Shown: piece after piece, positions 3,833 to 61,716 of the stretch
How the letters are laid out: every line of letters starts with the position of its first letter
Numbering within the stretch: position 1 is the stretch's first letter
IMG/VR virus record: IMGVR_UViG_3300037041_001875
Location: 1 to 64,000 of that record
DNA length: 64,000 bases
Source of the DNA: a virus
Reading direction: 5' to 3' (one strand)
The notes under the pieces: model-generated
The model's database searches: none
Told to the model about the DNA's origin: nothing
Seen by the model: the letters and a program-made list of their open reading frames with translations, nothing else
Program-made: the position numbers and the translations under genes

Positions 3833-4177
3833 CTAGCGTAAAAATTCATTTAAAATCAACGAAACGTCGCGTTTGTCTTCTTTGGTAGCATAACGCAATT
3901 TACCGGCGATAAATTCGGCCAAATCGCGCAATGGCGGGTCAAAATTTTCAATTAGACTCTGGTGCACTGTGCTAGCCTGACCACAAACGGACCTAGCTAC
4001 GGCTATCGCCACAGCTTCCCGGTCTATCGAAATAATCTCTTTCAATGCCTCGTGCCGCGTCTTTGGGAATCCATCGAAACTAGGCATGGAGGTTTCATCA
4101 ATTGCAAGGTCGATATCCTCGCAAGCTTTTTCAAGCGCTCCGTTGATCTCAAATTCTGTGAATAGTTCCATTTTCAT
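3833..4177 (-). CDS. Hypothetical 114-aa helical protein
   Basis: The protein begins MKMELFTEFEINGALEK and reads as an all-helical acidic protein. It is the last gene of an AT-rich leftward cluster (5767-3833), and AAAGG lies five bases before its ATG. Base composition is clearly more AT-rich than the genes left of 3.6 kb. Unknown function. Confidence 0.6.
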   Translation of the reverse strand: MKMELFTEFEINGALEKACEDIDLAIDETSMPSFDGFPKTRHEALKEIISIDREAVAIAVARSVCGQASTVHQSLIENFDPPLRDLAEFIAGKLRYATKEDKRDVSLILNEFLR

Positions 4178-14578: not shown

Positions 14579-14845
14579 CTACGCTTGGTGCCTCGTGGAC
14601 GTGGAATCTAGAGCAGTGACGCTTGCCTCATCTTCCACGAGTTCGCCTATTATATGCTCACGGCACATTACCCATGAGCGTCTATCGGCCGAGGTATCCC
14701 CTCGAGAAGCAATATCAAACAGAGCACACCACGTCCCACATTGGGCAGCGCCGTCACCGTAAGGGCAATTGAGCTTGCGGCCATCTTCGGCCACGAGAAC
14801 CTTAGTGGTCTTGGTATTCTTTCGGACTAGGCTAACCTTTTTCAC
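14579..14845 (-). CDS. Small Cys-motif protein downstream of CysH
   Basis: The 88-aa protein contains NCPYGDGAAQCGTWCALF (residues about 26-43) and a later Cys (VMCREH), a CP-x6-C-x2-C-x-C-like arrangement seen in small phage proteins that may bind metal. Its ATG overlaps the stop of the CysH-like gene as ATGA, so the two are made together. It may be an accessory of the sulfur cassette, or unrelated. Confidence 0.6.
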   Translation of the reverse strand: MKKVSLVRKNTKTTKVLVAEDGRKLNCPYGDGAAQCGTWCALFDIASRGDTSADRRSWVMCREHIIGELVEDEASVTALDSTSTRHQA

Positions 14846-15465
14846 GGTTTCACCTCATGGATTCCACATTCCTGCCGCTCGCCGGCCCAGCGGCCAGAGC
14901 GTTCGTCGCTCGAGGTCGGCAACGCGGTGCAAGGACGGCACCCGATAGATCGGTATCCCTGGTCGTGCAACGATTGAACAGGCACGTCGTTATCTCGAAT
15001 GTATTTCCAGCATTCCTCGCTTGTCCAGTTTAGCATTGGAGCCAAACGGATCTTGCCTTTCCGGTCTGTCTCAATTTCCTTCGAGTCTTTGCGCGTCGAG
15101 GCTTGGTCCCACCGCAGGGCAGAAACCCACGCCTGGTAGGGCTCGAGCGCGTACCATAAAGGAAGCACCTTTCGCTCATTGCAGCACTCTTGCGCAGGCG
15201 GGAGGTGAGTGCCTTCCGTAGGACCGATCCAACGCAAGGCCAAATCCCATTGCTGGTGCATACGGTTGGCAAAGGCCACTGTTTCACTGAACAGCATGCC
15301 CGTGTTGATCGAAAGGACCGGGACGTGCTCCCAGACCTTGCGGGCATGATCGAGCAGAACCATCCCTGAATAGCCCCAAGCCGTCGTGAAGATTACCTTG
15401 TCATCGTACATATCACGATAGAAGTTCAGAGTCTCACGCAGCTTGTCAGACTTCTCTGTCACCAT
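14842..15465 (-). CDS. cysH: APS/PAPS reductase-like enzyme (CysH family)
   Basis: The 207-aa protein has the CysH order: a nucleotide-binding PP-loop-like strand VIFTTAWGYSGMVLLDHA (about residues 24-41), SINTGMLFSET (52-62), the Cys pair ECCNERK (94-95), QASTRKDS, NWTSEECWKYI, the CRPC pair (176, 179) and the C-terminal QECGIHE with the catalytic Cys at 200. The CC/CxxC set is the [4Fe-4S] ligand pattern of bacterial APS reductases. These reduce (phospho)adenylyl sulfate to sulfite with thioredoxin. cysH is a known auxiliary gene of phages; its coupling to PLP and ATP-grasp genes is unusual. DndC-type DNA sulfuration enzymes are related, but the ECGIH tail favours a true reductase. Confidence 0.85.
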   Translation of the reverse strand: MVTEKSDKLRETLNFYRDMYDDKVIFTTAWGYSGMVLLDHARKVWEHVPVLSINTGMLFSETVAFANRMHQQWDLALRWIGPTEGTHLPPAQECCNERKVLPLWYALEPYQAWVSALRWDQASTRKDSKEIETDRKGKIRLAPMLNWTSEECWKYIRDNDVPVQSLHDQGYRSIGCRPCTALPTSSDERSGRWAGERQECGIHEVKP

Positions 15466-16229
15466 GGCACTGGACCTTTCAGAGCTCCGGTGAGGTTGAT
15501 CACCGGGGGTCGCTCTGGATACCCATACTTCTTAGCCCAATGCCACCATCCTGCAAGGCTCACTGCGGCCTCGAGGCCTGGGGGAGGTAGGGAGCTCACG
15601 AGGCTCCGTAGATGCTCCGCGGCGCGGTAAATCTCCGATGCCGAGACCTCGATAACCTCTGGGAGCTCGGGCGCGTCGGCAAGAGCAGGTGCCCAACGGG
15701 GGATGAGCTCGGCCTCGGGGCGCACGGGAACAACCGTGGTGCTTCGAGCTGGCCAGACCGCTTTGACTGCGGCGCAACCGTATCCGCCGCCCGTGGCCTG
15801 GAAGTAATGGTGCGAGGGATTGTCGCGGTAGACCTCATGGATTTGCTGCAATATCTCTCGAGCCATAATCTGGTGAGCAATCATTTTCAATTGATTGTTA
15901 CTCCCAGCAAACAAAAATGTCCTTCCCTTATCGGACATTTCGTATTCGTCCATAACTTGCTTTATGACACGAATACGAGGAACTTTATCGTCCCATGTGT
16001 ATACTATAACATCTAAATCTTTGCATATGCTAGTTATAGCCTCGCCAGTATTACCACTAGTCGCCACAATAACCGTTCTCACGCCTTGTAAGGCCGCAAA
16101 GTGCTTCACGGCCATAGCTTCGCGGTATTTAAATGATCCCGTTGGGAGCATATAGTCACATTTAAAATAGACCATGCGTCCGCAACTATCATCTGATAGA
16201 ATTAAAGGGCTTCTTGTTATTTCTTCCAT
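15459..16229 (-). CDS. Fold-type II PLP enzyme, threonine-synthase-like
   Basis: The 256-aa protein has the PLP lysine motif PTGSFKYRE (Lys near 34), the SGNTG asparagine loop (58-62), the phosphate loop TGGGYG (146-151) and ends in LTGALKG like threonine synthases. It is shorter than typical members (300-420 aa), with a reduced C-terminal half. Members do beta or gamma replacement on serine/homoserine derivatives: cysteine synthase, threonine synthase, diaminopropionate synthase. Seven bases of overlap couple it to cysH; thirteen couple it to an ATP-grasp gene. Substrate cannot be told from the sequence; a cysteine or diaminopropionate-type product would suit its partners. Confidence 0.8.
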   Translation of the reverse strand: MEEITRSPLILSDDSCGRMVYFKCDYMLPTGSFKYREAMAVKHFAALQGVRTVIVATSGNTGEAITSICKDLDVIVYTWDDKVPRIRVIKQVMDEYEMSDKGRTFLFAGSNNQLKMIAHQIMAREILQQIHEVYRDNPSHHYFQATGGGYGCAAVKAVWPARSTTVVPVRPEAELIPRWAPALADAPELPEVIEVSASEIYRAAEHLRSLVSSLPPPGLEAAVSLAGWWHWAKKYGYPERPPVINLTGALKGPVPW

Positions 16230-17041
16230 GCTGCCCCCAAGAATTGTGCACCAGGGAAATGATTCATTTCAATGACTACATACTTGTTATTCTCATCGAA
16301 GGTTCCATCAACAGACCATCGGTGGTTCTTACAACCCTTAACCTTTGGCGCAACTTCTTTATTTATCTGCTCCACCACTTCGGGTATACCATCAATCCTA
16401 CCGCCAAAATGAGCAACGTTGAGAGTCTTTTGTAGTACTACCTTTGTACTTTTAGAGTCAAGATTGCTCAAATCCATATCTTCCGTGTCCCTTACAAAAC
16501 CATCTAAATCTACCAAGATATATTTTGGTTTTTTCCAGCCAGCAGTAGAAATACCTTCAAGGTTAAAATACACTGGCGTCATTGTTATAAAGTCCACACA
16601 GTCTTGCCCAATGAATCTAATAATGGGCGGGCATCGAGTATCATCCGTGAACTTGTGCAGTTGATCGGCCGGGTGAATCCATTCTTCGACAAACCACGCA
16701 CGAGAAGATAGTAATTTTTTGCGGGTATTTAATTTTATTCTTCTTATCTTATCTAGTTCAGAAGGTAAATCACTCGCTGAAAATAAACAGTCGTATGAAA
16801 AAATCATAAACCCTTCAGCAGTCTTCTCTAACAGAGCTACGCCACTATTCTGCCGACCACACCGCGGTTTCCAAACATATTTACCTATAGGCGCTTTTAT
16901 TAACCTATCTATATTGTAGTAAAACTCGCCTGGATTAATTAAGGTCGCAGGATAAGCAAGTGACGTGTTATCACTTAACCACTGCTTAGTGAAAATCTTG
17001 TCCCAAAACTCTTTAGCATTTAAAATCATTACTTCTTCCAA
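16217..17041 (-). CDS. ATP-grasp ligase-like protein, paralog 1
   Basis: The 274-aa protein has N-terminal KIFTKQWLSDNTS shared with its two neighbours, then the ATP-grasp landmarks: the strand with the ATP lysine YVWKPRCGRQNSGVAL (about 54-69), the adenine-contact strand WFVEEWI (about 116-122) and the C-terminal metal-binding DGTFD...YVVIEMN (about 244-262). ATP-grasp enzymes join a carboxylate to an amine or thiol via an acyl phosphate. AT-rich base use, more so than the reductase gene downstream. The family call is from motifs only; its overall look recalls tubulin-tyrosine-ligase-like members. Confidence 0.65.
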   Translation of the reverse strand: MEEVMILNAKEFWDKIFTKQWLSDNTSLAYPATLINPGEFYYNIDRLIKAPIGKYVWKPRCGRQNSGVALLEKTAEGFMIFSYDCLFSASDLPSELDKIRRIKLNTRKKLLSSRAWFVEEWIHPADQLHKFTDDTRCPPIIRFIGQDCVDFITMTPVYFNLEGISTAGWKKPKYILVDLDGFVRDTEDMDLSNLDSKSTKVVLQKTLNVAHFGGRIDGIPEVVEQINKEVAPKVKGCKNHRWSVDGTFDENNKYVVIEMNHFPGAQFLGAAWKK

Positions 17042-17853
17042 ACAACACCTAAGAAGGGTGTTCCTATGGCAGAGTTCATTTCAATTATAACAAACTTGTT
17101 ATCTTTATCAAATACGCCGTCAACAGACCAACATTTATTGTGGATTAACTTCAGTTTTGGGCTAATCTCACGATTCACTTGGTCAATAATCTCTCGAACA
17201 CCTTCAATTTTATGCCCACATAAATCGGTGTCTATACGCCTCTCCACAACAGACACTAGAGTTTTCTTGTCTGCGTTAGACAGGTCCATTTCATCGGTGT
17301 GCCTAACAACGCCATTGAAATCTAGCCATAAATACTTTCGATGGTCCCAACCAAAAGACGATATGCCGACCTCGTTAAAGTATACCGGCGAAATCACTAC
17401 GAAATGAACGGCGCTTCGTCCACAGATACGAATAATCGGCGGGCAACGCATATCATTTGTGAACTTGCCAAGTCTTTCGTGCGGTTTAACCCATTCCTCG
17501 ACAAACCAGTTTCGGTGATCTTTAGCTTCTTTAGCTTCTGAAATAGTTAATCGTTTTATTCTAGTTAATTCTTCAATTGTGTCCTGTAAAGGCATAACTG
17601 TATCAGATGGGAATATTTTATATCCGTCAACAGTTTTATTTATAAGAGCGATTCCCCAGCCTTTCCGGCCAAAACAAGGCTTCCAGACGTACTCACCTAC
17701 AGGCAAATCTTCCAATTTTTTAGCAACCTCGTTGAAAAGGGCTAATTCTACTATAGTTTTAGGATAGGCAAACGACGTGTTTTCACTTAGCCACTGCTTA
17801 GTGTAGATCTTATTTGCAAATCTCTTCGGTACTATTTTCAAATTGATAATCAT
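17029..17853 (-). CDS. ATP-grasp ligase-like protein, paralog 2
   Basis: The 274-aa tandem duplicate of the previous protein has KIYTKQWLSENTS, YVWKPCFGRKGWGIAL, WFVEEWV and VDGVFD...FVIIEMN in the same positions. Sequence similarity is spread over the whole length. Keeping three copies suggests that each adds a different unit or acts on a different acceptor. Its ATG overlaps the stop of paralog 3 (ATGA). Confidence 0.65.
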   Translation of the reverse strand: MIINLKIVPKRFANKIYTKQWLSENTSFAYPKTIVELALFNEVAKKLEDLPVGEYVWKPCFGRKGWGIALINKTVDGYKIFPSDTVMPLQDTIEELTRIKRLTISEAKEAKDHRNWFVEEWVKPHERLGKFTNDMRCPPIIRICGRSAVHFVVISPVYFNEVGISSFGWDHRKYLWLDFNGVVRHTDEMDLSNADKKTLVSVVERRIDTDLCGHKIEGVREIIDQVNREISPKLKLIHNKCWSVDGVFDKDNKFVIIEMNSAIGTPFLGVVWKK

Positions 17854-19441: not shown

Positions 19442-21952
19442 TTATTTTGGAACGTGGAGATCGAGGTGGTTGAAGCCTATTTTGCCTTCGACCTCAAAGG
19501 GCATGCAGTACGTTTTGCCGGTGATAGGCGAGGCCAGCTTCTTCGAGCAGCGTAACGAGTTCATGCAATCCTCGAGGGCTTGCTGAGCATAGTCGATGGT
19601 GACCTCGGCGCGGAGGTCATCATGAATCTGCATAATTGGCCAAACTCTTGTATGATAGTCGCCTTTCTCTTCCAATAGGCGTAACCATCTAATGGTAGCC
19701 GCATCTACAATATCTCCCGCGCCGCCTTGAACTGGGTGGTTCGTGGCCTCGGTGTCAGGCACTCCGCCCAATGGCCAGCGGCGTCGACGGCCGAGCCATG
19801 GCGTTCGGAGCTCGAAGGTTCGGTTGGCAATTTCAGTGACGTAAGCAGAATACTCGTTGACATTTTTGTATTTTGCCCGTTTGCGGGCCTGCATGGTCTG
19901 AACTTCTTGGAACGTGATCCCTGGAACATCCTCGCGCACATTCTCAAATAAGGTCTGCGGACCAGCTCGGTAAATGTCACCGAAGGTCACGGGCTTCGAG
20001 TTCGTCCTCAAGAGCTTGCGCTGGTCCGTGCTCGCTCGATTCCAAATCTCCCCGAAGTAGACCTCGGCGAACATAGAGTGCACGTCGGTCCCGTTGATGA
20101 AGGCCTCAATGAGATCCTCTTGGCCCGCGAGCAACACCGATATGCGCAGCTCGAGCGCCGCGAAGTCCACTGAGATGATGCAGCGCCCCGGAGCGGGCAC
20201 GAGCATACGTCGCATGGACCTCGGCCAGTTCTGCACAGCAGGCTTTGTGCCGAAGCGTCCCGAAGGCGTCGCGGTCTTGTTCCAGCGCGTGTGAATGCGC
20301 CCATCTTTGCCGACCTCCTGACCCAAACCGTCGATGTACGTCGAGAACAATTTCGTCTTGGTTCGGTAGGCCTGCAAGAGCTCGACGAACGGGTGATCTC
20401 TAAACTCAAAAAGGCTCGCGGCATCGGTCGAAAGCTGTCCGCTCTTCGTGACCTTCTTGGGTATCAAATTGAACTGGTCGACGAGCACCTTTTGAAGCTG
20501 CGGGGGGCTGTTCGGATTGAAATCTCGACTCCCCACGAGAGACCATATATTCTCTTTTAGGCATGCAATACTCTCACTGAATTCCTTATGCAGCACAAGG
20601 CGCGCAGCTTCGTCGACTCCGAGGCCGACCTTCTCCCAATCCATGGCGTAGCGCGTGATAATCCGATCCGTCTCGTACACGTTCAGAACGTTCTCACGAC
20701 GCATCTCTTGGCGCAATTTGTCATGCAGTAGAATCGTGTTCGCGGTGTCTGCACCGTTGTAGTAGAGCAGCGCGGGGATGTCCTCGTCGCTCACGTTTAT
20801 GAACCGCTTATCGTAGTATTCCTTCCAGGGCTCGACCGGGAAAAATTGGGTCGCCACAGCTTGCAAATCGTGGGGCGTCTTTGGGTAGATCGCATGGTGC
20901 TCAAGGAGAGTGTCTTCGATCTTCCCGGCGATCTTGATCTGCATCATTCGCTCGATGATCGGGACGTCAAAAGCCATGTTATGGAAGACCCACGTTCTCT
21001 CTGGATCTTGGAAAGCCGCTTTAAGAGCTCTCCAAGAGGAATGCCAGTCTTCCGTGGTGAAATACGAACGCAACCCTGGGCATGGAATAGCCACGGCGAA
21101 AGGCTTCTCTTCGCCTGTCTCGTCATCATAGATGAGACGCGCCAAACCTACCGTCGTGATCCCGCATTCGCGCACGTCTAGGCCATCGGTCTCGAGGTCC
21201 ACGGCCACAGGTTCCGAAGGCGACTCGAGCACTCGTTGAACAGCTTCGAAGGTGAAAGCCTCGACCACGGGCTGGCGCAACGCGATCTTCTCGTTGGCCA
21301 AGAGGTGTGCCTTCTCGACGTCAGCAATGAATAGATCCAACCATACGTGCCTTGCCGGCGAGCGCAGCATAGCTGCGGGATGGATGGTCGACACCACAAG
21401 CGTTCGCCATTCCTCTTCAGCAAAGGCCTCGGGCCGCAGTTGCGGCTCCACTATCTTCGGGTCAAAGTCAACAGGAAACTGAGCAGTCTCGGGCGCCAAT
21501 ACCTCGAGGGGATACTTGATACTAAAGTCTTGCCAAGTAGTAGCTCCTCGAAACTTCTCGACGCCTTTGAGGCCGGTCGTCGACTGCAATGCAATGCCCC
21601 CCAAGGTCAAGATCGCCCGTGGCTTGATCTCGACAATGTTGGCCTCGAGCTCCCCCTGGCAACACTCCCGAGCAATCTTCATTGCGGCATCCGATGGTTT
21701 GGTCCCGCCGCTGAAGTTGCACCGAATAGCATTCGTGATATGGGTCGCCTCGATTGACGTGTGCAGATAGTCCAGGACCGTCTTCAAGATGTGTCCCGAG
21801 GCCCCCACGAACGGAACTCCCCGCTTGACCTCTTCGCGGCCCGGGCTCTCCCCGATGACCATCAAGTTGTTCCACGCGACGAGGGGGTGTTTGTCCATGA
21901 CTTCCAATCCATTCTCGAAGAATGGGCAGGTAATCTGATTACATGGCTTCAT
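19442..21952 (-). CDS. Uracil-DNA glycosylase domain fused to family A DNA polymerase
   Basis: The 836-aa protein has three parts. Residues 1-215: a family 4-type uracil-DNA glycosylase domain with GESPGREE (34-41), PFVGASGHIL and HPAAMLR (191-197). Residues about 245-430: a DEDD 3'-5' exonuclease with VDLETDG (exo I), HNMAFD (exo II) and YNGAD (exo III). Residues about 430-836: family A polymerase with ATPSGRFG, motif A VDFAALELR (595-603), motif B RTNSKPVTFGDIY (649-661) and motif C IHDDL (776-780, Asp instead of the usual Glu of HDE). I recall that phage SPO1 polymerase has a similar N-terminal UDG-like domain. It replicates the element's DNA; the UDG part may read uracil or a modified base. 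GGGAG lies upstream of the ATG. Confidence 0.9.
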   Translation of the reverse strand: MKPCNQITCPFFENGLEVMDKHPLVAWNNLMVIGESPGREEVKRGVPFVGASGHILKTVLDYLHTSIEATHITNAIRCNFSGGTKPSDAAMKIARECCQGELEANIVEIKPRAILTLGGIALQSTTGLKGVEKFRGATTWQDFSIKYPLEVLAPETAQFPVDFDPKIVEPQLRPEAFAEEEWRTLVVSTIHPAAMLRSPARHVWLDLFIADVEKAHLLANEKIALRQPVVEAFTFEAVQRVLESPSEPVAVDLETDGLDVRECGITTVGLARLIYDDETGEEKPFAVAIPCPGLRSYFTTEDWHSSWRALKAAFQDPERTWVFHNMAFDVPIIERMMQIKIAGKIEDTLLEHHAIYPKTPHDLQAVATQFFPVEPWKEYYDKRFINVSDEDIPALLYYNGADTANTILLHDKLRQEMRRENVLNVYETDRIITRYAMDWEKVGLGVDEAARLVLHKEFSESIACLKENIWSLVGSRDFNPNSPPQLQKVLVDQFNLIPKKVTKSGQLSTDAASLFEFRDHPFVELLQAYRTKTKLFSTYIDGLGQEVGKDGRIHTRWNKTATPSGRFGTKPAVQNWPRSMRRMLVPAPGRCIISVDFAALELRISVLLAGQEDLIEAFINGTDVHSMFAEVYFGEIWNRASTDQRKLLRTNSKPVTFGDIYRAGPQTLFENVREDVPGITFQEVQTMQARKRAKYKNVNEYSAYVTEIANRTFELRTPWLGRRRRWPLGGVPDTEATNHPVQGGAGDIVDAATIRWLRLLEEKGDYHTRVWPIMQIHDDLRAEVTIDYAQQALEDCMNSLRCSKKLASPITGKTYCMPFEVEGKIGFNHLDLHVPK

Positions 21953-22303
21953 TGTGGTACTCCCTTGGGGGGTGAGTGACTAGAAAACTGTATAAAAACG
22001 AGTGGCACGAGCAGGATTCGAACCTTCCACGGCGACGTAACAACCGAGGAGAAGAGAGACAGTCCGTTTACTTCGCCGCATCACCAGATCGTGCCAGAAG
22101 GAGCCCTAACGTTGCAGGTGTGTTGGGCAACCGGCGCATCTTTTTGAGTAGATACTGCCTGCAACGTGAGGGACTCCATAAAATTGCCAGTGACCAATTT
22201 AAAGTCCAGCAAACTGGCAACCTGGACACCGGAAGGAATAAGGGCAGATCTTCCTTCCAAGGCTCGAGTTAGGGGTGTGACGTCCGCCCGAGCCAGTCTC
22301 GCC
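21953..22303 (-). ncRNA. Structured non-coding region upstream of the polymerase gene
   Basis: These 351 bp lie between two minus-strand genes. In 5'->3' order on the minus strand there are: a hairpin with arms 22294-22289/22266-22261, a hairpin with arms 22258-22251/22238-22231 (GGAAGGAA/TTCCTTCC), an H-type pseudoknot 22227-22184 (stems GTCCAG/CTGGAC and TTGCCAGT/ACTGGCAA interleaved), a 10-bp stem 22167-22158/22118-22109 and a tRNA-like element 22095-22003 followed by a T5 run. No coding frame is convincing. It may be one multi-domain RNA or a leader of the polymerase mRNA. Confidence 0.5.
22003..22095 (-). ncRNA. tRNA-like structure without a normal anticodon arm
   Basis: GGCACGA (22095-22089) pairs perfectly with TCGTGCC (22010-22004) as a 7-bp acceptor stem. 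Immediately inside the 3' strand is a T-arm with canonical loop TTCGAAT and 4 of 5 stem pairs. In place of the anticodon arm an 11-bp stem with one mismatch (CGGCGAAGTAA with TTACGTCGCCG) encloses a 27-nt pyrimidine-rich loop. A discriminator A follows, but no encoded CCA. It could be a degenerate tRNA, a tmRNA-like tRNA domain or an attachment site derived from a host tRNA. Confidence 0.5.
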
Positions 22304-22888
22304 TTAACGCCCTCGCCGCATGACTGTGGGCGGTGTAGCCGGTCGTGGTTGCGGTGTCGCCATGGGTGGAGCCACAGCTTGGGCCACAGCTTGGGCCACA
22401 ACTTGGGCCGCGACTGCTGGGGCCTCTACGGCCGCAACAGGGAACTCCCCTGCGGTAGCGTGCGAAATGGGAATGATATTCGAGAGGTTGACTTTTGGGT
22501 TCCCATCTGCTCCGGTCTTGATCTTCACGTCCGCCGCGAAGGTGGTGTCGATGAGGTTCTGTGTGTCGGCGTCCTCGCCGGCCTCGAGCAGGTCATAGCG
22601 CCCCCACGCCTTGAGGTAACCGACCGTCTGCTCAATGGGCCTGCCCCACTTGCCAGGCTTATCGGATAGCCCCAAGTATTGGCTGTGGACCTTCGTGCCG
22701 GGGTCATCGCCGCTGATTTGCACACACTTGGCGGTGATGTAGCGCTCGCCGACATGCTCCCCCTGGGAGTTGACGCCCTCGGTGATCCCTGTGATTTGGA
22801 ACTCCTGCCGACCTGGGTCTGGCGGAACCCATCCAGCTCCAGGGGTTTTGCCTTCGAACTCGTTCATGTTGATTCCAAAAACGCCCAT
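22304..22888 (-). CDS. Single-stranded DNA-binding-like protein
   Basis: The 194-aa protein has a beta-rich core (REFQITGITEGVNSQGEHVG...YITAKCVQISGDD...LGLSDKPGKWGR) of the type found in phage SSB/DUF669-like proteins, then an Ala/Val/Gln/Pro-rich flexible tail (about 150-190) ending in basic residues (MRRGR). Bacterial SSB tails are acidic, so the basic end is unusual. It sits between the exonuclease and the polymerase genes, as expected for a replication SSB. GGAGAG precedes the ATG. Confidence 0.55.
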   Translation of the reverse strand: MGVFGINMNEFEGKTPGAGWVPPDPGRQEFQITGITEGVNSQGEHVGERYITAKCVQISGDDPGTKVHSQYLGLSDKPGKWGRPIEQTVGYLKAWGRYDLLEAGEDADTQNLIDTTFAADVKIKTGADGNPKVNLSNIIPISHATAGEFPVAAVEAPAVAAQVVAQAVAQAVAPPMATPQPRPATPPTVMRRGR

Positions 22889-24299: not shown

Positions 24300-25195
24300 T
24301 AAAATTCGCTCCGATCCTTCTTACGCAAGCCGTCCATCGAGTCTCTAAGGCACATGCCCATGTATTCGCACGTCCGGTTCCACATGACGCAATTGTGCAT
24401 GCGCTGTGGCCACTTCCCGAAGTGGAAACACTCTTCCAATTCCCAGGAAATTTTCTTCATGGATCTTTCCCAGGCTTTGAGCATCTCGTCAGGAATGACC
24501 ACCTCTTCTTGGTAAATCATGACCTCGCGTTCATGCTTTACGATCTGGTCAACCATGAAGGCTCGCAAGTCACCACGATCACACTTTTTCCAAAGCCAAA
24601 CTTGCCCCAGAAATTGGGGGTTCAGCTTGTAGCTGTCAAGCAGTACGGTAGACCTTCTCGCCGCGGTCTTGTGCTCGCAGATGGTCGGCCGGCCCTGGAC
24701 TTGGATGACCGCGTCTAGGCGTGCCGAGTAATGGAAGGGCTTCTTCACCTCGAGCGCGAGCTCGACGTGCAAAATGTCTGACTCCTGTATCTTGAGCACG
24801 CCCCCCGGACCCCAAAAGCGCGCCCATGCCGATAACAGTCGACGTGCCTCGTTGGCAGTCACGGGCGCCACGGTAGAAGCCAGGTCGACGACATACCAGA
24901 GCGAAGCCCAGAAGGCCTCGTCACCATCCTGCCACGCGAGCAGCGCTTGGGCAATGGCCTCGTGAACCAGTCCGCCGAGTTCGAGTGCAGGAAAGAGCTC
25001 GACCGTGGTCAATCGCTTCACGAACTGATAGAAATACCTCTTCGGGCAGCGAACGAACTCGGCCCACTTGGAATTTCCCATGAGCGAAGGCCCACCGGCC
25101 AAATCTTCTTTTCGAAAAGCAGTTTGCCAGCTCGGCTCTTGCGCGAGCAGGCCACCTTTGACGTCAACGCCTGAAAAGTCTACTCCAAATTTCAC
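24299..25195 (-). CDS. PD-(D/E)XK nuclease with likely Fe-S cluster (Cas4/RecB family)
   Basis: The 298-aa protein has FVRCPKRYFYQF near residue 50, a GGLVHEAIAQAL helix, the nuclease core RLDAVIQVQGRPTICEHKTA (Asp...Glu-x-Lys, about 177-195) and three C-terminal cysteines (NCVMWNRTCEYMGMC). One N-terminal and three C-terminal Cys is the [4Fe-4S] layout of Cas4 and AddB. It is likely an exonuclease working with the Sak4-like ATPase. The start is the GTG at 25195, which shares bases with the upstream TAG; the longer frame lies over the neighbour. Confidence 0.8.
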   Translation of the reverse strand: MKFGVDFSGVDVKGGLLAQEPSWQTAFRKEDLAGGPSLMGNSKWAEFVRCPKRYFYQFVKRLTTVELFPALELGGLVHEAIAQALLAWQDGDEAFWASLWYVVDLASTVAPVTANEARRLLSAWARFWGPGGVLKIQESDILHVELALEVKKPFHYSARLDAVIQVQGRPTICEHKTAARRSTVLLDSYKLNPQFLGQVWLWKKCDRGDLRAFMVDQIVKHEREVMIYQEEVVIPDEMLKAWERSMKKISWELEECFHFGKWPQRMHNCVMWNRTCEYMGMCLRDSMDGLRKKDRSEF

Positions 25196-25578
25196 TATGC
25201 CCTCGGCCCGTTTCCTGCCGGAACGCTCACTATGAGCGGCTGATCCTTTTGTCCCTCGTGTGTGTGTGTCCACGCGGCCTCGACACCCATGCGAACAGTT
25301 GTGGCTAAGAGATCACCGATAGCCTGCAACTGGGCTTGGAGCTCTTCCCGTGTCTCGACGGTCTGCACAACGGCCGCGGCGACAAAGCGAGCAGCAGCGT
25401 AGCCCAAAGCGACCAAACCATGCAACGTCGGCATCTCGCCGCCAAATGCTTTAATCAGTTCAGTCGTCGCGGTCATCGAAAATTGATTTAGGCCAATAGC
25501 AGAAGGAACACCATTCTCGGGCGTTTTCGCCATCAAATACCTAGTAGCTTCAGCCACCACTTGCTTTGTGCTAGTCAC
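25195..25578 (-). CDS. Hypothetical 127-aa helical protein
   Basis: The protein begins MTSTKQVVAEATRYLM. It is all-helical with an Ala-rich middle (LGYAAARFVAAAVVQTVETREELQAQL), amphipathic rather than membrane-spanning. It lies in the recombination group and overlaps both neighbours slightly. Unknown. Confidence 0.65.
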   Translation of the reverse strand: MTSTKQVVAEATRYLMAKTPENGVPSAIGLNQFSMTATTELIKAFGGEMPTLHGLVALGYAAARFVAAAVVQTVETREELQAQLQAIGDLLATTVRMGVEAAWTHTHEGQKDQPLIVSVPAGNGPRA

Positions 25579-40586: not shown

Positions 40587-41458
40587 TGGCTAAAAACTAT
40601 CTCCCATTTGCCCGTCGAGTTTACCTCGATGTCCCTGCCGGGACTAGAAGGTCAATTCTACGTGAGCAGTTTTCGAGTGGTATGGGCAATCGAGCTTTTC
40701 TGTCTGATGTGGCAATCGACTTAATTTATATTGATGGGATTACCACGTATAACTACAATTGGCAGGTAGGGCGCGTGCTAACTGAGCGTGTGTTCATGCG
40801 TATGGGTATTTTTGGCGCTCCTTACTTGACAGAAGATTTCTATCCTATCGCGCTATTCAACGATTCTCCTATGGAAGAGGTCGGTGTATGGAGATTGCCA
40901 AAACCATACACAATCTTTCCAGGTGAGAGGTTGAAAGCTCGTGTGCAGTTTTCTCCCGGCGGCGCTGTGGCTCCTTTGCCCAGTGAGGCATATGGTGGGT
41001 ACTATGCAACTTGGCCGAGCATAGCTTTTCACGGTGTCCGTCAAGACAACAAAAGACCCATAGTTTTGTATGATACGTTCCCTTCAACCTTCGATCAAAA
41101 CGACGTGTTCGTGACTCCACCATTAGGGACTCCAGTTATTTTGCAAGGTGAACGCTTGCAATGTCCCAAAGAGACACCCGTAGACATTTATGCCGTGAAA
41201 AATCCCACTTGCGGCGATGGTCAGCAAGGCCAGTTCCCGGGTGTGCAGATTTGGTCGCCCGACGGCCGGAAGTGGTGGGAAGATGATCGGTGGCCGCTGG
41301 TTCTGTATCCCACGTTCGTGATAAAAAATTTGCGTGGGCCTGAATGGGTTTTGGATGTTAGTGAGACGCTGCAAATTGAATTCGAGAATCTTCCTGTTTA
41401 CTCGTTCGATAGAACCTTAATGGTCACGTTGCGCGGTCAAGTGGAGGTAGAAATATGA
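40586..41458 (+). CDS. Beta-rich virion protein, possible double jelly roll 2
   Basis: The 290-aa protein has FLSDVAIDLIYIDG near residue 35, a mid-protein strand WPSIAFHGVRQDN and a C-terminal TLMVTLRGQVEVEI strand like the ending of the preceding protein. The ATG at 40586 shares a base with the upstream TGA, and GGAGG lies seven bases before it. Likely a paralogous capsid or vertex protein. Confidence 0.5.
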   Translation: MAKNYLPFARRVYLDVPAGTRRSILREQFSSGMGNRAFLSDVAIDLIYIDGITTYNYNWQVGRVLTERVFMRMGIFGAPYLTEDFYPIALFNDSPMEEVGVWRLPKPYTIFPGERLKARVQFSPGGAVAPLPSEAYGGYYATWPSIAFHGVRQDNKRPIVLYDTFPSTFDQNDVFVTPPLGTPVILQGERLQCPKETPVDIYAVKNPTCGDGQQGQFPGVQIWSPDGRKWWEDDRWPLVLYPTFVIKNLRGPEWVLDVSETLQIEFENLPVYSFDRTLMVTLRGQVEVEI

Positions 41459-42525
41459 AAAACATTTTCGTGACTACCCCTGGTGTTCCAAGTCCTGTTG
41501 TGGCCTCGAGGTTCACGGCCTTCAAGGGCGAGCGCCCCAAGGTACTCTCGCAAGTTCCCGCGGGTGAAAATGTCGCCGAAGTTTACCCGTGGATTTCGGG
41601 CGTGCGGCACATGATTAACGGTGTGACGGACTCGGAAACCAAGGTTATTCGAGAAGGCTACGGGTCTTCCGCTTTCGTGAACAACACCGACCGAGTTATA
41701 AGTATCAAGCAGTTGAGGTTTTTCTCTTCTCAACCGCCCGGTCTTGTCATGATATTAGGGAATTCGATGATTTATGCCCGCATGGGCATTAAAGTAAGAC
41801 ACACCGATTTCGAAATCGTGTCTGAATGGCTCCCATGCGGCATGCTCGAGACGCAAAACAATGTATGGGAAACAGTTGCCCGTAGCAATCTCTGTATGTC
41901 CCTGCCAACCCCGTACTATTTGCAGTCGGGACACACGTTCAGGACACGCATACGCTCAACTAATCCGTTCATGGCCGCTGCGAATTATTCTTTTTCTATG
42001 ACTTTGTTCGGCAAAGACCCAAAGAACGGCAAACCGTATGAGCTTTGCAAGCAAGTGACCGTGCCCTACCGCGCCACGCCGGCAGTTAGCGCCGCAAACC
42101 CCCTGTATGTGGACGTTGTGTTTGATGACAACCGCGACTATCCCATGCGAGATATGCTGTTAACGCATATTTTGTTTTCGATAGCTCCACACGCAGGCGT
42201 GGGGTACGAGCAGGTTTTGCGTTACGCACAGCAACTAGATTTTCAGTTTATGCCGCCCGAAGGGCCAAAGTGGCTAGACTTTGCCGACTGGGCTCCAGTG
42301 GGTAACTTGGTAGATCAAACAATATGTAGCAATGTTAGTGCTTCGTTTGTTTCATACAGGCCAGAAACGCCTATACTTTTCGCTCCTAGCCAGCAGATAG
42401 ATATTGACGTCAGAGCGCTTGCGCCGTTGTCTTATCAGGATGCCGAGGAGCCTAGAGAGCTTATCTACGAGGTTCCGTTGTGGGTCACGTTGATCGGCAC
42501 GCAAGAGCAGCAGGTGAACAGATGA
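41455..42525 (+). CDS. Beta-rich virion protein, possible double jelly roll 3
   Basis: The 356-aa protein has two halves ending in matching strands, NYSFSMTLFGKDP (about residue 180) and VPLWVTLIGTQEQ (end), each preceded by an opening strand (RVISIKQLRFF; YPMRDMLLTHILF). The longer loops (for instance after residue 210) could form surface towers. The three tandem paralogs would let the particle use different proteins at different lattice positions. ATGA overlaps at both ends. Confidence 0.5.
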   Translation: MKNIFVTTPGVPSPVVASRFTAFKGERPKVLSQVPAGENVAEVYPWISGVRHMINGVTDSETKVIREGYGSSAFVNNTDRVISIKQLRFFSSQPPGLVMILGNSMIYARMGIKVRHTDFEIVSEWLPCGMLETQNNVWETVARSNLCMSLPTPYYLQSGHTFRTRIRSTNPFMAAANYSFSMTLFGKDPKNGKPYELCKQVTVPYRATPAVSAANPLYVDVVFDDNRDYPMRDMLLTHILFSIAPHAGVGYEQVLRYAQQLDFQFMPPEGPKWLDFADWAPVGNLVDQTICSNVSASFVSYRPETPILFAPSQQIDIDVRALAPLSYQDAEEPRELIYEVPLWVTLIGTQEQQVNR

Positions 42526-43534: not shown

Positions 43535-44452
43535 ATGGCGGAAACCTGGGATACCGGCGAAGACAGTAGCTCTTGGGACACGACCACGCAGGACTACAGC
43601 ACGCAAACCGAGCGTGACCAGTGTGGCCAGACCTTGGACGAGTCGTGGGAGTATCAGACGGACGACTATGGCTACACCAAGCAGGACAACAGCCAAACCA
43701 CGGGCTACAAAGAGGCGCGCAAGACTGAGATCAAGCGGATTCAGACCGCCTTATTGCGAGCGACCTTCAACCCGGGCACCGTCGACGGCTCTTGGGGGCC
43801 GAAGACCTGCTCGGCCATGCTCGCATTCCAGAAGAGTCGCTTCGGCTCGGCGAAGAAGGCCTGGTTGGATATCGAGACGTGGACCAAGCTCGACTTTGAC
43901 ATGAGCACCTCGAAGAGATTCGAAGACCTCTACGGCCGGTCATGCGGTGGAGCTCCACCGGCTGGTTGGGCGGGCGCAGGAAGCGGAACGAATGTCGGTA
44001 TCAGCGCTACCGAAATCCAGAAGATTCAGTACGGACTCGGCGTGCTCACAACGGGTGTGTTCGACAAGGCCACGTGCGCTGCGCTCTACAAGAAGCAAGC
44101 GGCTCTTGGAGTGAGTGGCTCAGTGCTCACGAAGCGCGTCTTCGAGACGCTCGGCTTCACGACTTCGGACGCTCAGAAGTTGGCTATGCAGCTCGGCACG
44201 GCTTGCACAGCCTACTACAAGGCGGCTGGAAGCACAACCCCGGCGAAGCCATCGACGACGCCAGCTAAGCCAACCACGCCAACCACGCCAACCAAACCTC
44301 CGACGACTCCAGGCACAACGCCAACCAAACCCACAATCACTCCACAGACCGCAGGGCTCAGTGGATGGTGGATCTTGGCCGGCATGCTCGTCGTGGGCAT
44401 CGGCGGCATGATTTTCATGAAAGACCAGAAGCCTGGTAAGAGGCGTCGATAA
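43535..44452 (+). CDS. Peptidoglycan-binding, tail-anchored virion protein
   Basis: The 305-aa protein has an acidic, Gln/Thr-rich N-terminus (1-60), a peptidoglycan-binding type 1 domain (EIKRIQTALLRATFNPGTVDGSWGPKTCSAMLAFQKS, about 67-103), a second divergent copy (EIQKIQYGLGVLTTGVFDKATCAAL, about 166-190), a Thr/Pro-rich linker (about 235-275), and a membrane helix (WWILAGMLVVGIGGMIFM) with a KRRR end. It has no catalytic domain. It would tether the virion membrane to cell wall peptidoglycan during entry. Confidence 0.75.
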   Translation: MAETWDTGEDSSSWDTTTQDYSTQTERDQCGQTLDESWEYQTDDYGYTKQDNSQTTGYKEARKTEIKRIQTALLRATFNPGTVDGSWGPKTCSAMLAFQKSRFGSAKKAWLDIETWTKLDFDMSTSKRFEDLYGRSCGGAPPAGWAGAGSGTNVGISATEIQKIQYGLGVLTTGVFDKATCAALYKKQAALGVSGSVLTKRVFETLGFTTSDAQKLAMQLGTACTAYYKAAGSTTPAKPSTTPAKPTTPTTPTKPPTTPGTTPTKPTITPQTAGLSGWWILAGMLVVGIGGMIFMKDQKPGKRRR

Positions 44453-60429: not shown

Positions 60430-60683
60430 CCTATGCCTTCTTCGCGGAACAAATCGCCCATAGACCTGCAAAGGGTCGCGGACGAAACGCGCAGGATGCG
60501 GCTGTCTCGAGCTAGGTAAAACTCATATTTCGTTGGGTCGAGCAGTTCTGAGGCCGACAGACCCTCGTCTCTTAGCTGTTTTATTGCGCTCTTTAGTGTC
60601 TCGTGCATCGAGATTGTGCTGTCTTCTAGGTCGATAGACAAAACTGAAAACGTTGGGGCCTTTTTTGAGCACTCGTCAGTCAT
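60417..60683 (-). CDS. Hypothetical 88-aa protein
   Basis: The protein begins MTDECSKKAPTFSVLSIDLE, helix and strand mixture, overlapping neighbours by 8 and 13 bases. Coupled to the integrase gene. Not recognised. Confidence 0.6.
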   Translation of the reverse strand: MTDECSKKAPTFSVLSIDLEDSTISMHETLKSAIKQLRDEGLSASELLDPTKYEFYLARDSRILRVSSATLCRSMGDLFREEGIGCDI

Positions 60684-61716
60684 TTGAATCCTCCATGTCG
60701 TCGTCCGTTGCGTACATATCCTCGAGCCTATCGTTCATCTCATCCATTCTATTCGAATGGAGGTAGATTTGAGTGGTCTCTATGCTCGTGTGACCGAGAA
60801 AGTTTGCTACAAGCATGATGTCCTTGGTTGCCTGATACAACCGAAGAGCGGCCGTCTTGCGAAAGCGGTGCGAGCGGACCTCCGAGGCCTCGATGCCACA
60901 CGCCACGGCGTAGTCCTTGAGATGCTTCGAGATGTGCGCGTAGGAGCTCTTCGGCCGGTTCTCTGCCGACGCGGCCGGCGCGACGATATCCGCGATGTAG
61001 TTCCAAGCTCCTGGCCATCTGCTCAGTACTTCGAGCTCTTCGCGGACCACGCCCGAGGGCAAGCTGCGCTGCTTCAACCTCTTCGACCAGATCATCAAAG
61101 GAGCACCAGTCTCGACCGAGTGGAGCACGGATTCTCGTTGAATCCATGGTGTGTCCGCACCTGCTCGAAGGCCGAGTTTGATAGCGATGCGCAGCACTGG
61201 CCACGTCCAGGGCCATCGAGGATTGCCCTTGTCGGCGTCGATCACCGCAAGGATTTTACCTACCTCTTGTTCAGTGAACGCGGGAAGGATCTTCTTGGTC
61301 GGCGCTTCCCGGTCGCGGAGCATCTTCTTCACCTTCAGGCCGGCGAGCTCGACGATCAACTCTCCGCGGTTCGTATAGAGCGCGTACTGCCTGATAGCGG
61401 CGCGGATCGCGTGCTTAGTGGTCAGTTGCAGGTCACGTCTGCGCAGGGCGTCGACCGGCGTCCCGCCTGTGGTAATGAGCGCGTGCCAGACGTAGTTGGC
61501 ATACGTCTCAGCGCTGTTCTTCGACAACGCGGCATCCTCAATCATGAAGCGGACGAACGCCTTGCAACTCTCCCGGCAACACTTGGCGACGTAGGTCCGC
61601 GCCGCATGCACAATCTCAATGGGCACGGGCTCAAAAATCGCGTCCTTGCCGTTGATAAGGGCCTCGGCGCCCTCGAGGCCGTTCACGAGCCGGTTGGCGT
61701 TATCGTTTTGGCTCAT
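60676..61716 (-). CDS. int: Tyrosine recombinase (integrase)
   Basis: The 346-aa protein has an N-terminal SAM-like core-binding domain (about 45-130) and a catalytic domain with Arg in KLGLRAGAD (near 184), HRFRKTAALRL (His 283, Arg 286), LGHTSIETTQIYLH (His 309, Tyr 318). All active-site residues are present. It would integrate the element or resolve multimers of the circle. An attP site was not identified next to it. Confidence 0.9.
   Translation of the reverse strand: MSQNDNANRLVNGLEGAEALINGKDAIFEPVPIEIVHAARTYVAKCCRESCKAFVRFMIEDAALSKNSAETYANYVWHALITTGGTPVDALRRRDLQLTTKHAIRAAIRQYALYTNRGELIVELAGLKVKKMLRDREAPTKKILPAFTEQEVGKILAVIDADKGNPRWPWTWPVLRIAIKLGLRAGADTPWIQRESVLHSVETGAPLMIWSKRLKQRSLPSGVVREELEVLSRWPGAWNYIADIVAPAASAENRPKSSYAHISKHLKDYAVACGIEASEVRSHRFRKTAALRLYQATKDIMLVANFLGHTSIETTQIYLHSNRMDEMNDRLEDMYATDDDMEDSND

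Follow-up and report, generated by a model that had tools for sequence, protein, structure and literature searches.

Between the gene for an SSB-like protein and the DNA polymerase A gene of an uncultured DNA virus lies a structured, non-coding RNA of several domains, which ends in a tRNA-like domain (TLD) lacking an anticodon arm. The RNA is real: its shape has been preserved by evolution while the letters have changed. Among these uncultured DNA viruses it is apparently new to description. An earlier note, made from the letters alone, had proposed this architecture, and both the covariation and the lack of a conserved reading frame described below bear it out. As to function, the comparison of sequences leads us to favour, with a probability of about 40%, a conserved cis element of the leftward replication operon, in which the TLD would serve as an RNase P processing signal splitting the SSB and polymerase messages.

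The stretch of DNA analysed, here called the window, comprises positions 1 to 64,000 of the 65.6-kb IMG/VR virus record IMGVR_UViG_3300037041_001875. The RNA locus is the 351-nt gap at 22303-21953 on the minus strand, between the end of the SSB-like gene at 22304 and the polymerase, and is the largest gap of a tightly packed block of genes on the same strand; an apparent gap of 297 nt at 25274-25570 is occupied by an ORF (25195-25578). The gene on the 5' side had no match in the Pfam search and is called SSB-like by its fold alone. An AlphaFold model of the protein built from five homologs (pLDDT 69, with a confident core at about residues 16-146) has as its best structural match the ssDNA-binding OB-fold protein PrgE (Z 8.7); many SSB and OB-fold proteins come after it at lower Z. 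The polymerase carries an N-terminal domain of the UDG superfamily (PF03167).

Features of the RNA locus and its flanking genes, in window coordinates
Feature	Positions	Strand	Details	Basis
SSB-like OB-fold protein gene	22304..22888	-	directly 5' of the RNA in 5/5 homologs	predicted structure and synteny
Hairpin H1	22261..22294	-	22294-22287/22268-22261	6 Watson-Crick pairs, 8 counting a G.U
Hairpin H2	22231..22258	-	22258-22251/22238-22231	8 bp
H-type pseudoknot	22184..22227	-		S1 22227-22222/22209-22204 (6 bp), S2 22220-22213/22191-22184 (8 bp)
Stem A, outer stem	22100..22177	-	bulged T22173	22177-22174/22103-22100 and 22172-22170/22106-22104
Stem A, inner stem	22167-22158/22118-22109	-	10 bp	sequence
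Predicted RNase P cut	22095..22096	-	U22096/G22095	geometry of the TLD
TLD	22000..22095	-	acceptor, D-like loop, P2, T-arm, A73, three tail bases	covariation and covariance model R1
Acceptor 5' strand	22089..22095	-	GGCACGA, pairs with 22010-22004	perfect 7 bp; 6/7 pairs covary
D-like loop	22079..22088	-	TCTGGTGATG, without D-stem	length 8-11 nt in homologs
P2 helix and loop	22030..22078	-	22078-22068/22040-22030 with a 27-nt loop, replacing the anticodon arm	
T-arm	22011..22027	-	loop TTCGAAT	T-stem 22027-22023/22015-22011
Acceptor 3' strand and discriminator	22003..22010	-	TCGTGCC, then A73 (22003)	A73 in 5/5
Shine-Dalgarno-like site of the polymerase gene	21960..21966	-	AAGGGAG; ATG at 21952	sequence; same in L003
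DNA polymerase A gene	19442..21952	-	downstream of the RNA	Pfam PF00476, PF03167, PF01612

Homologous loci were obtained from IMG/VR by polymerase-based searches, two of them (L022 and L023) through a profile of the C-terminal part of the polymerase. Together with L003 and L002 they give a comparison set of five sequences, the window included, which represent three clades, divergent by the identity of their polymerases, two of them close pairs. The polymerase is 93% identical to that of the window in L003, 60% in L002 (best segment) and about 45% overall in L022 and L023. Gene order is the same in the compared stretches (PDDEXK, Sak4-like AAA, exonuclease, SSB-like gene, RNA, polymerase), with the exception of a small ORF between RNA and polymerase in L022 and L023. 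The RNA thus adjoins the SSB-like gene in all five and stands directly before the polymerase in three; the description 'upstream of the polymerase' in the earlier note is correct for these three, but the RNA is better assigned to the interval between SSB-like gene and polymerase than to the polymerase by itself. Six more distant relatives, with polymerases 22-25% identical, have a small gap or none before the polymerase and gave no match to the covariance model described below. No real match to the RNA was found by blastn in 50,697 phage records, scans of IMG/VR with DNA motifs returned only contigs of these same viruses and chance matches, and searches of genome contigs with polymerase profiles gave no relatives.

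The core common to the five TLDs consists of a 7-bp acceptor, a D-like loop of 8-11 nt without a D-stem, an 8-bp P2 with about 27-33 nt in its loop, a 5-bp T-stem, a 7-nt T-loop that starts with TTC, and A73. The U at N-1 (U22096 in the window) is also present in all five. The 11-bp stem (P2) that the earlier note had claimed for the window is there, as is a T-stem, though neither is perfect, since 10 of 11 positions pair in P2 and four of five in the T-stem, with one A.G in each. In L022 and L023 the T-loop reads TTCGTTA and is without an A at position 58. These two are also the only ones to encode CCA (ACCA at the acceptor end), the window and L002 having ACTC. The sequence of the acceptor varies freely, and a G3.U70 pair occurs in L002 only, with C-G elsewhere, so that it is absent from two of the three clades. 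A pyrimidine stretch in the P2 loop, TGTCTCTCTTCTCCT (window 22041-22067, minus strand), is identical in L003 though the flanking helix has changed; it is not kept in L002 or L022. There is one confident copy of the TLD per genome, a second covariance-model match in one genome (G003; 11.8 bits, E 0.67) not being significant.

The evidence for the fold comes from comparisons of several kinds. The fold of the isolated minus strand is more stable than that of shuffled sequence (z = -4.5). Stem-based alignments were used because MAFFT misaligned L022 and L023 when given the full RNAs. In the resulting five-row alignment of the TLD (A10), which was built from hand-cut stems and therefore leans towards structure, 95% of cells pair and double compensatory changes are seen at 17 of 20 pairs, the covariation score being 0.89 against 0.35 in shuffles (reached by none of 500). 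This signal is destroyed when the partner strand is slid by one to three columns. Within P2, seven of the eight core pairs covary over the five sequences, and three double changes separate the window from L003. Three checks lean less on these hand-cut stems: a covariance model and a descriptor scan, both given below, and a pairwise comparison of the window with L003. The two RNAs of this comparison, which are 82% identical and were aligned by sequence, gave six double-compensatory changes, two single consistent changes and two broken pairs, whereas placing the same substitutions randomly within the stems, which are those of the window, gave 0.8 double and 8.2 broken (P < 5e-5 and about 5e-5). 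The compensatory changes by which the earlier note wished its stems to be judged are therefore present, both in the TLD and against L003. The folded RNA strand is the polymerase-sense strand, because G.U pairs occur there (six cells) and A.C is absent.

A covariance model (R1) was made from the window, L003, L022 and L023, with one D-loop base removed from L022 and L023 so that the rows align without gaps. L002, which was left out of the model, provides a check: within its 291-nt gap, searched with filters off, the best match is exactly the L002 TLD (3879-3966; 14 bits, E 0.0015). The match is weak, and a larger search that kept the default filters did not report L002 among its matches up to E 10. 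Scanning the 64-kb window with a descriptor of the TLD gave one match, the TLD itself, with 0.35 expected at random per 64 kb, and the same scan of L041, L042 and L043 found the TLD only. The descriptor did not pick up L002, since the TLD there falls below the lengths searched.

On the 5' side of the TLD, the two hairpins, the pseudoknot and the 10-bp stem listed in the earlier note are all present on the minus strand of the window, as is the T5 after the TLD; the list goes too far, however, if all of them are taken as general features of the RNA. In L003, H1 shows one compensatory and one consistent change, while H2 has seven of its eight pairs unchanged and the eighth broken. The pseudoknot is found in the window and L003, and a counterpart in L002 has the same topology with unrelated letters, which makes two clades only; in L022 and L023 no pseudoknot was recognised. 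What had been overlooked is the outer stem that encloses the 10-bp stem. This outer part of stem A, GGRG(Y)CCYT..ARGGCTCCTTC in all five, is the most sequence-conserved piece of the RNA; it is near-invariant, has a bulged pyrimidine and shows a single compensatory pair. In L002 and L022 other, unrelated stems stand in place of the inner stem. From these sequences the conserved core of the RNA is the near-invariant bulged stem A together with the TLD, with H1, H2 and the pseudoknot outside it. The T5 (21998-21994) is not conserved either, being T4 in L003, with no T-run in L002, L022 or L023. A hairpin, GACCTGA..TCAGGTC, followed by T6 stands directly before the TLD in L022 (about 1646-1696) and at the equivalent place in L023, and is without counterpart in the other clades; by eye it resembles a terminator, yet the terminator scan gave it no score.

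Simpler accounts of the gap were examined and rejected. The five gaps share no conserved reading frame, and several insertions or deletions of 1-2 nt separate the window from L003, so that a coding explanation fails, as does a reading of the T5 as a terminator, given its lack of conservation and the lack of a terminator-like site scored there. No sigma-70-like promoter was seen in the gap at the four loci scanned. CTCCTT, the letters of an anti-Shine-Dalgarno sequence, occurs in the 3' strand of stem A (22098-22106, minus strand) and could pair with the AAGGGAG at the polymerase start; this complementarity may be trivial, and sequestration of the Shine-Dalgarno site was rejected since the pairing is inconsistent among the homologs.

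The family to which the RNA might belong was sought in Rfam, where nothing in the window reached the gathering threshold. With the limit relaxed to E 5, no tmRNA appeared for the window region, L002, L003 or L022, only sub-threshold tRNA-Sec and chance matches (Plastid-psbl-rps4, Hammerhead_II, SNORA42 and mir-617). The best of the sub-threshold matches, tRNA-Sec, covers 22096-22003 with 17 bits, and its scores of 17 and 15.6 bits compare with a cut-off of 47. ARAGORN reported no tRNA or tmRNA in the window and eight loci. A tRNA, tRNA-Sec included, was rejected on these grounds and on the lack of a D-stem and an anticodon arm.

The closest likeness is to tmRNA (ssrA, RF00023). As in tmRNA, the TLD combines the upper half of a tRNA (T-arm and A73) and a deformed D-arm, reduced to a short D-like loop, with a long P2 in place of the anticodon arm, and pseudoknots occur within the same RNA; the TCTGG of the D-like loop is presumably a further resemblance. 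Unlike in tmRNA, the viral P2 ends in its loop of about 27-33 nt, which leaves no room for a tag domain; neither an mRNA-like domain nor a tag was found, and the pseudoknot and stems lie 5' of the entire TLD. The G3.U70 alanine identity pair, described as completely conserved in tmRNA (PMC3985003), is confined to L002 although A73 is universal. The identity with tmRNA was thus rejected on the G3.U70 pair, the lack of a tag frame and the curated models, in agreement with the earlier note, which had drawn the parallel while pointing to the different order of the parts.

Other systems share single traits. In MALAT1/mascRNA a tRNA-like domain also lies 3' of a structured RNA, and its maturation needs RNase P (PMC11693755); that is a nuclear long RNA rather than a DNA virus operon, here a long helix replaces the anticodon arm, and here the cleavage is a prediction. 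RNase P cuts pre-tmRNA, phage M3 RNA, phage C4 antisense RNA, plant-virus tRNA-like ends and mRNAs (PMC11143913). M3 and C4 are phage-encoded non-tRNA transcripts that are substrates of the host enzyme; the viral RNA differs from them in having a full TLD with a T-loop, and no Rfam match at threshold. The tRNA-like structures of plant RNA viruses such as TYMV are likewise viral tRNA mimics processed by RNase P (PMC11143913), but they stand at the 3' end of RNA genomes and form the acceptor via a pseudoknot, in contrast to the standard acceptor stem in a DNA virus operon found here.

The position, structure, strand and covariation of the RNA are directly supported, and a processing scheme would start from them. 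RNase P recognises the acceptor/T stack, the T-loop, A73 and N-1. The TLD offers a stacked acceptor/T-arm (7+5), a T-loop, A73 and a free N-1, with the RCC(A) tail partly present. We propose that the SSB-like gene, the RNA and the polymerase are co-transcribed and that host RNase P, recognising the acceptor/T stack, would cleave the transcript between U22096 (N-1) and G22095 (N+1), the single event that the scheme predicts; a tRNA 3'-processing nuclease possibly cuts near A73. The 3' end of the SSB message would then be shielded by the hairpins, the pseudoknot and stem A, and the polymerase message would be left with a short leader. The two messages, that for SSB presumably needed in bulk and that for the polymerase in small amounts, could thereby have separate lifetimes. 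We favour this processing signal because the TLD keeps the determinants for RNase P in all five sequences without what a decoding tRNA needs, because it stands in the same SSB-like/polymerase interval in each, because the gap is the largest of a packed block and has no promoter of the sigma-70 type at four loci, and because the distant relatives have neither such a gap nor the RNA. The reading is weakened by CCA being encoded in L022 and L023 only and by their T-loop lacking A58. A pure processing role also leaves the near-invariant stem A unexplained, which suggests, from its conservation, that stem A has a protein or RNA partner.

Such a partner is at the centre of one alternative, in which the SSB-like protein or the polymerase would bind the RNA at stem A, the pseudoknot or the TLD and repress translation of the polymerase. 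By analogy this is possible, if on balance unlikely. In T4, gp32 (SSB) represses its own translation through a leader pseudoknot and gp43 (polymerase) through a hairpin (PMC3014915, PMC535899), and the RNA here also stands beside, and between, genes for an SSB-like protein and a polymerase, with a bulged stem A that looks like a protein site. The T4 operators are, however, short, lie in the leader of the controlled gene and have no tRNA-like domain, which a simple operator does not need; here the RNA comes after, not before, the SSB-like gene, another ORF separates it from the polymerase in L022 and L023, and the inconsistent Shine-Dalgarno pairing again argues against it. It is unlikely too that a stand-alone anticodon-less mimic is freed from the replication transcript and acts in trans on host translation, for example by capturing SmpB, EF-Tu or a synthetase, or that a tRNA mimic within this viral RNA links the tRNA processing of the host to the expression of the replication genes. 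The tmRNA-type shape and the encoded ACCA of L022 and L023 speak for the released TLD as a tag-less, tmRNA-like RNA acting on host translation (by binding SmpB, EF-Tu, a synthetase or the ribosome), which is nevertheless quite unlikely. Against it stand the freely varying acceptor, which with G3.U70 in L002 only gives no common aminoacylation identity, the missing tag frame, and the constant location in one and the same interval, as would be expected of a role in cis. The processing, operator and trans-acting models are not exclusive of one another.

The location within a block of replication genes would suit a replication primer, as the earlier note had suggested, or an origin RNA, but this is very improbable: the turning point of the cumulative GC skew is near 28 kb rather than 22 kb, on which ground an origin was rejected, and a primer needs no covarying tRNA-like 3' domain directly before a gene start. 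We give hardly any credence to a tRNA-gene relic or attachment site taken from the host, although the 3' part in the window and L003 reads like the 3' end of a tRNA (GGTTCGAATCCTGC) and the same virus encodes an integrase. The integrase lies about 39 kb away, no homolog has an anticodon arm or a D arm, ARAGORN was negative, and the compensatory changes over three clades point to selection on the fold, which contradicts a relic.

Some observations concern the rest of the window. The tyrosine recombinase of the phage integrase family, at 60676-61716 (minus strand), suggests by its sequence a virus that is temperate or integrating. A metabolic cluster in the replication-side block (14842-17853, minus strand) consists of adjacent genes for a PAPS reductase, a pyridoxal-phosphate enzyme (PALP) and an ATP-grasp-like protein, the last having a similar neighbour. 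The presumed virion block is on the plus strand (32927-59155), where the larger ORFs that were scanned gave a PHROG match for an endolysin-like protein only (43535-44452) and no terminase, portal or capsid was recognised. Two ORFs of this block that were tested are common to the L003 and L022 contigs, and one ORF had no tblastn match in the 50,697 phage records; possibly the block encodes a virion of a type not yet described. The protein at 41455-42525, a capsid candidate, was dropped, its structure model being of low confidence (pLDDT 46) and the matches meaningless.

So far tmRNA, nuclear long RNAs and plant RNA viruses have been the main sources of anticodon-less tRNA mimics. Here a covarying mimic lies in the replication operon of a DNA virus, where it was missed by tRNA finders and matches no Rfam family at threshold; the covariance model from this analysis can be used to look for further TLDs. 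The finding points to tRNA-type recognition as a means by which viruses may organise the expression of their replication genes.
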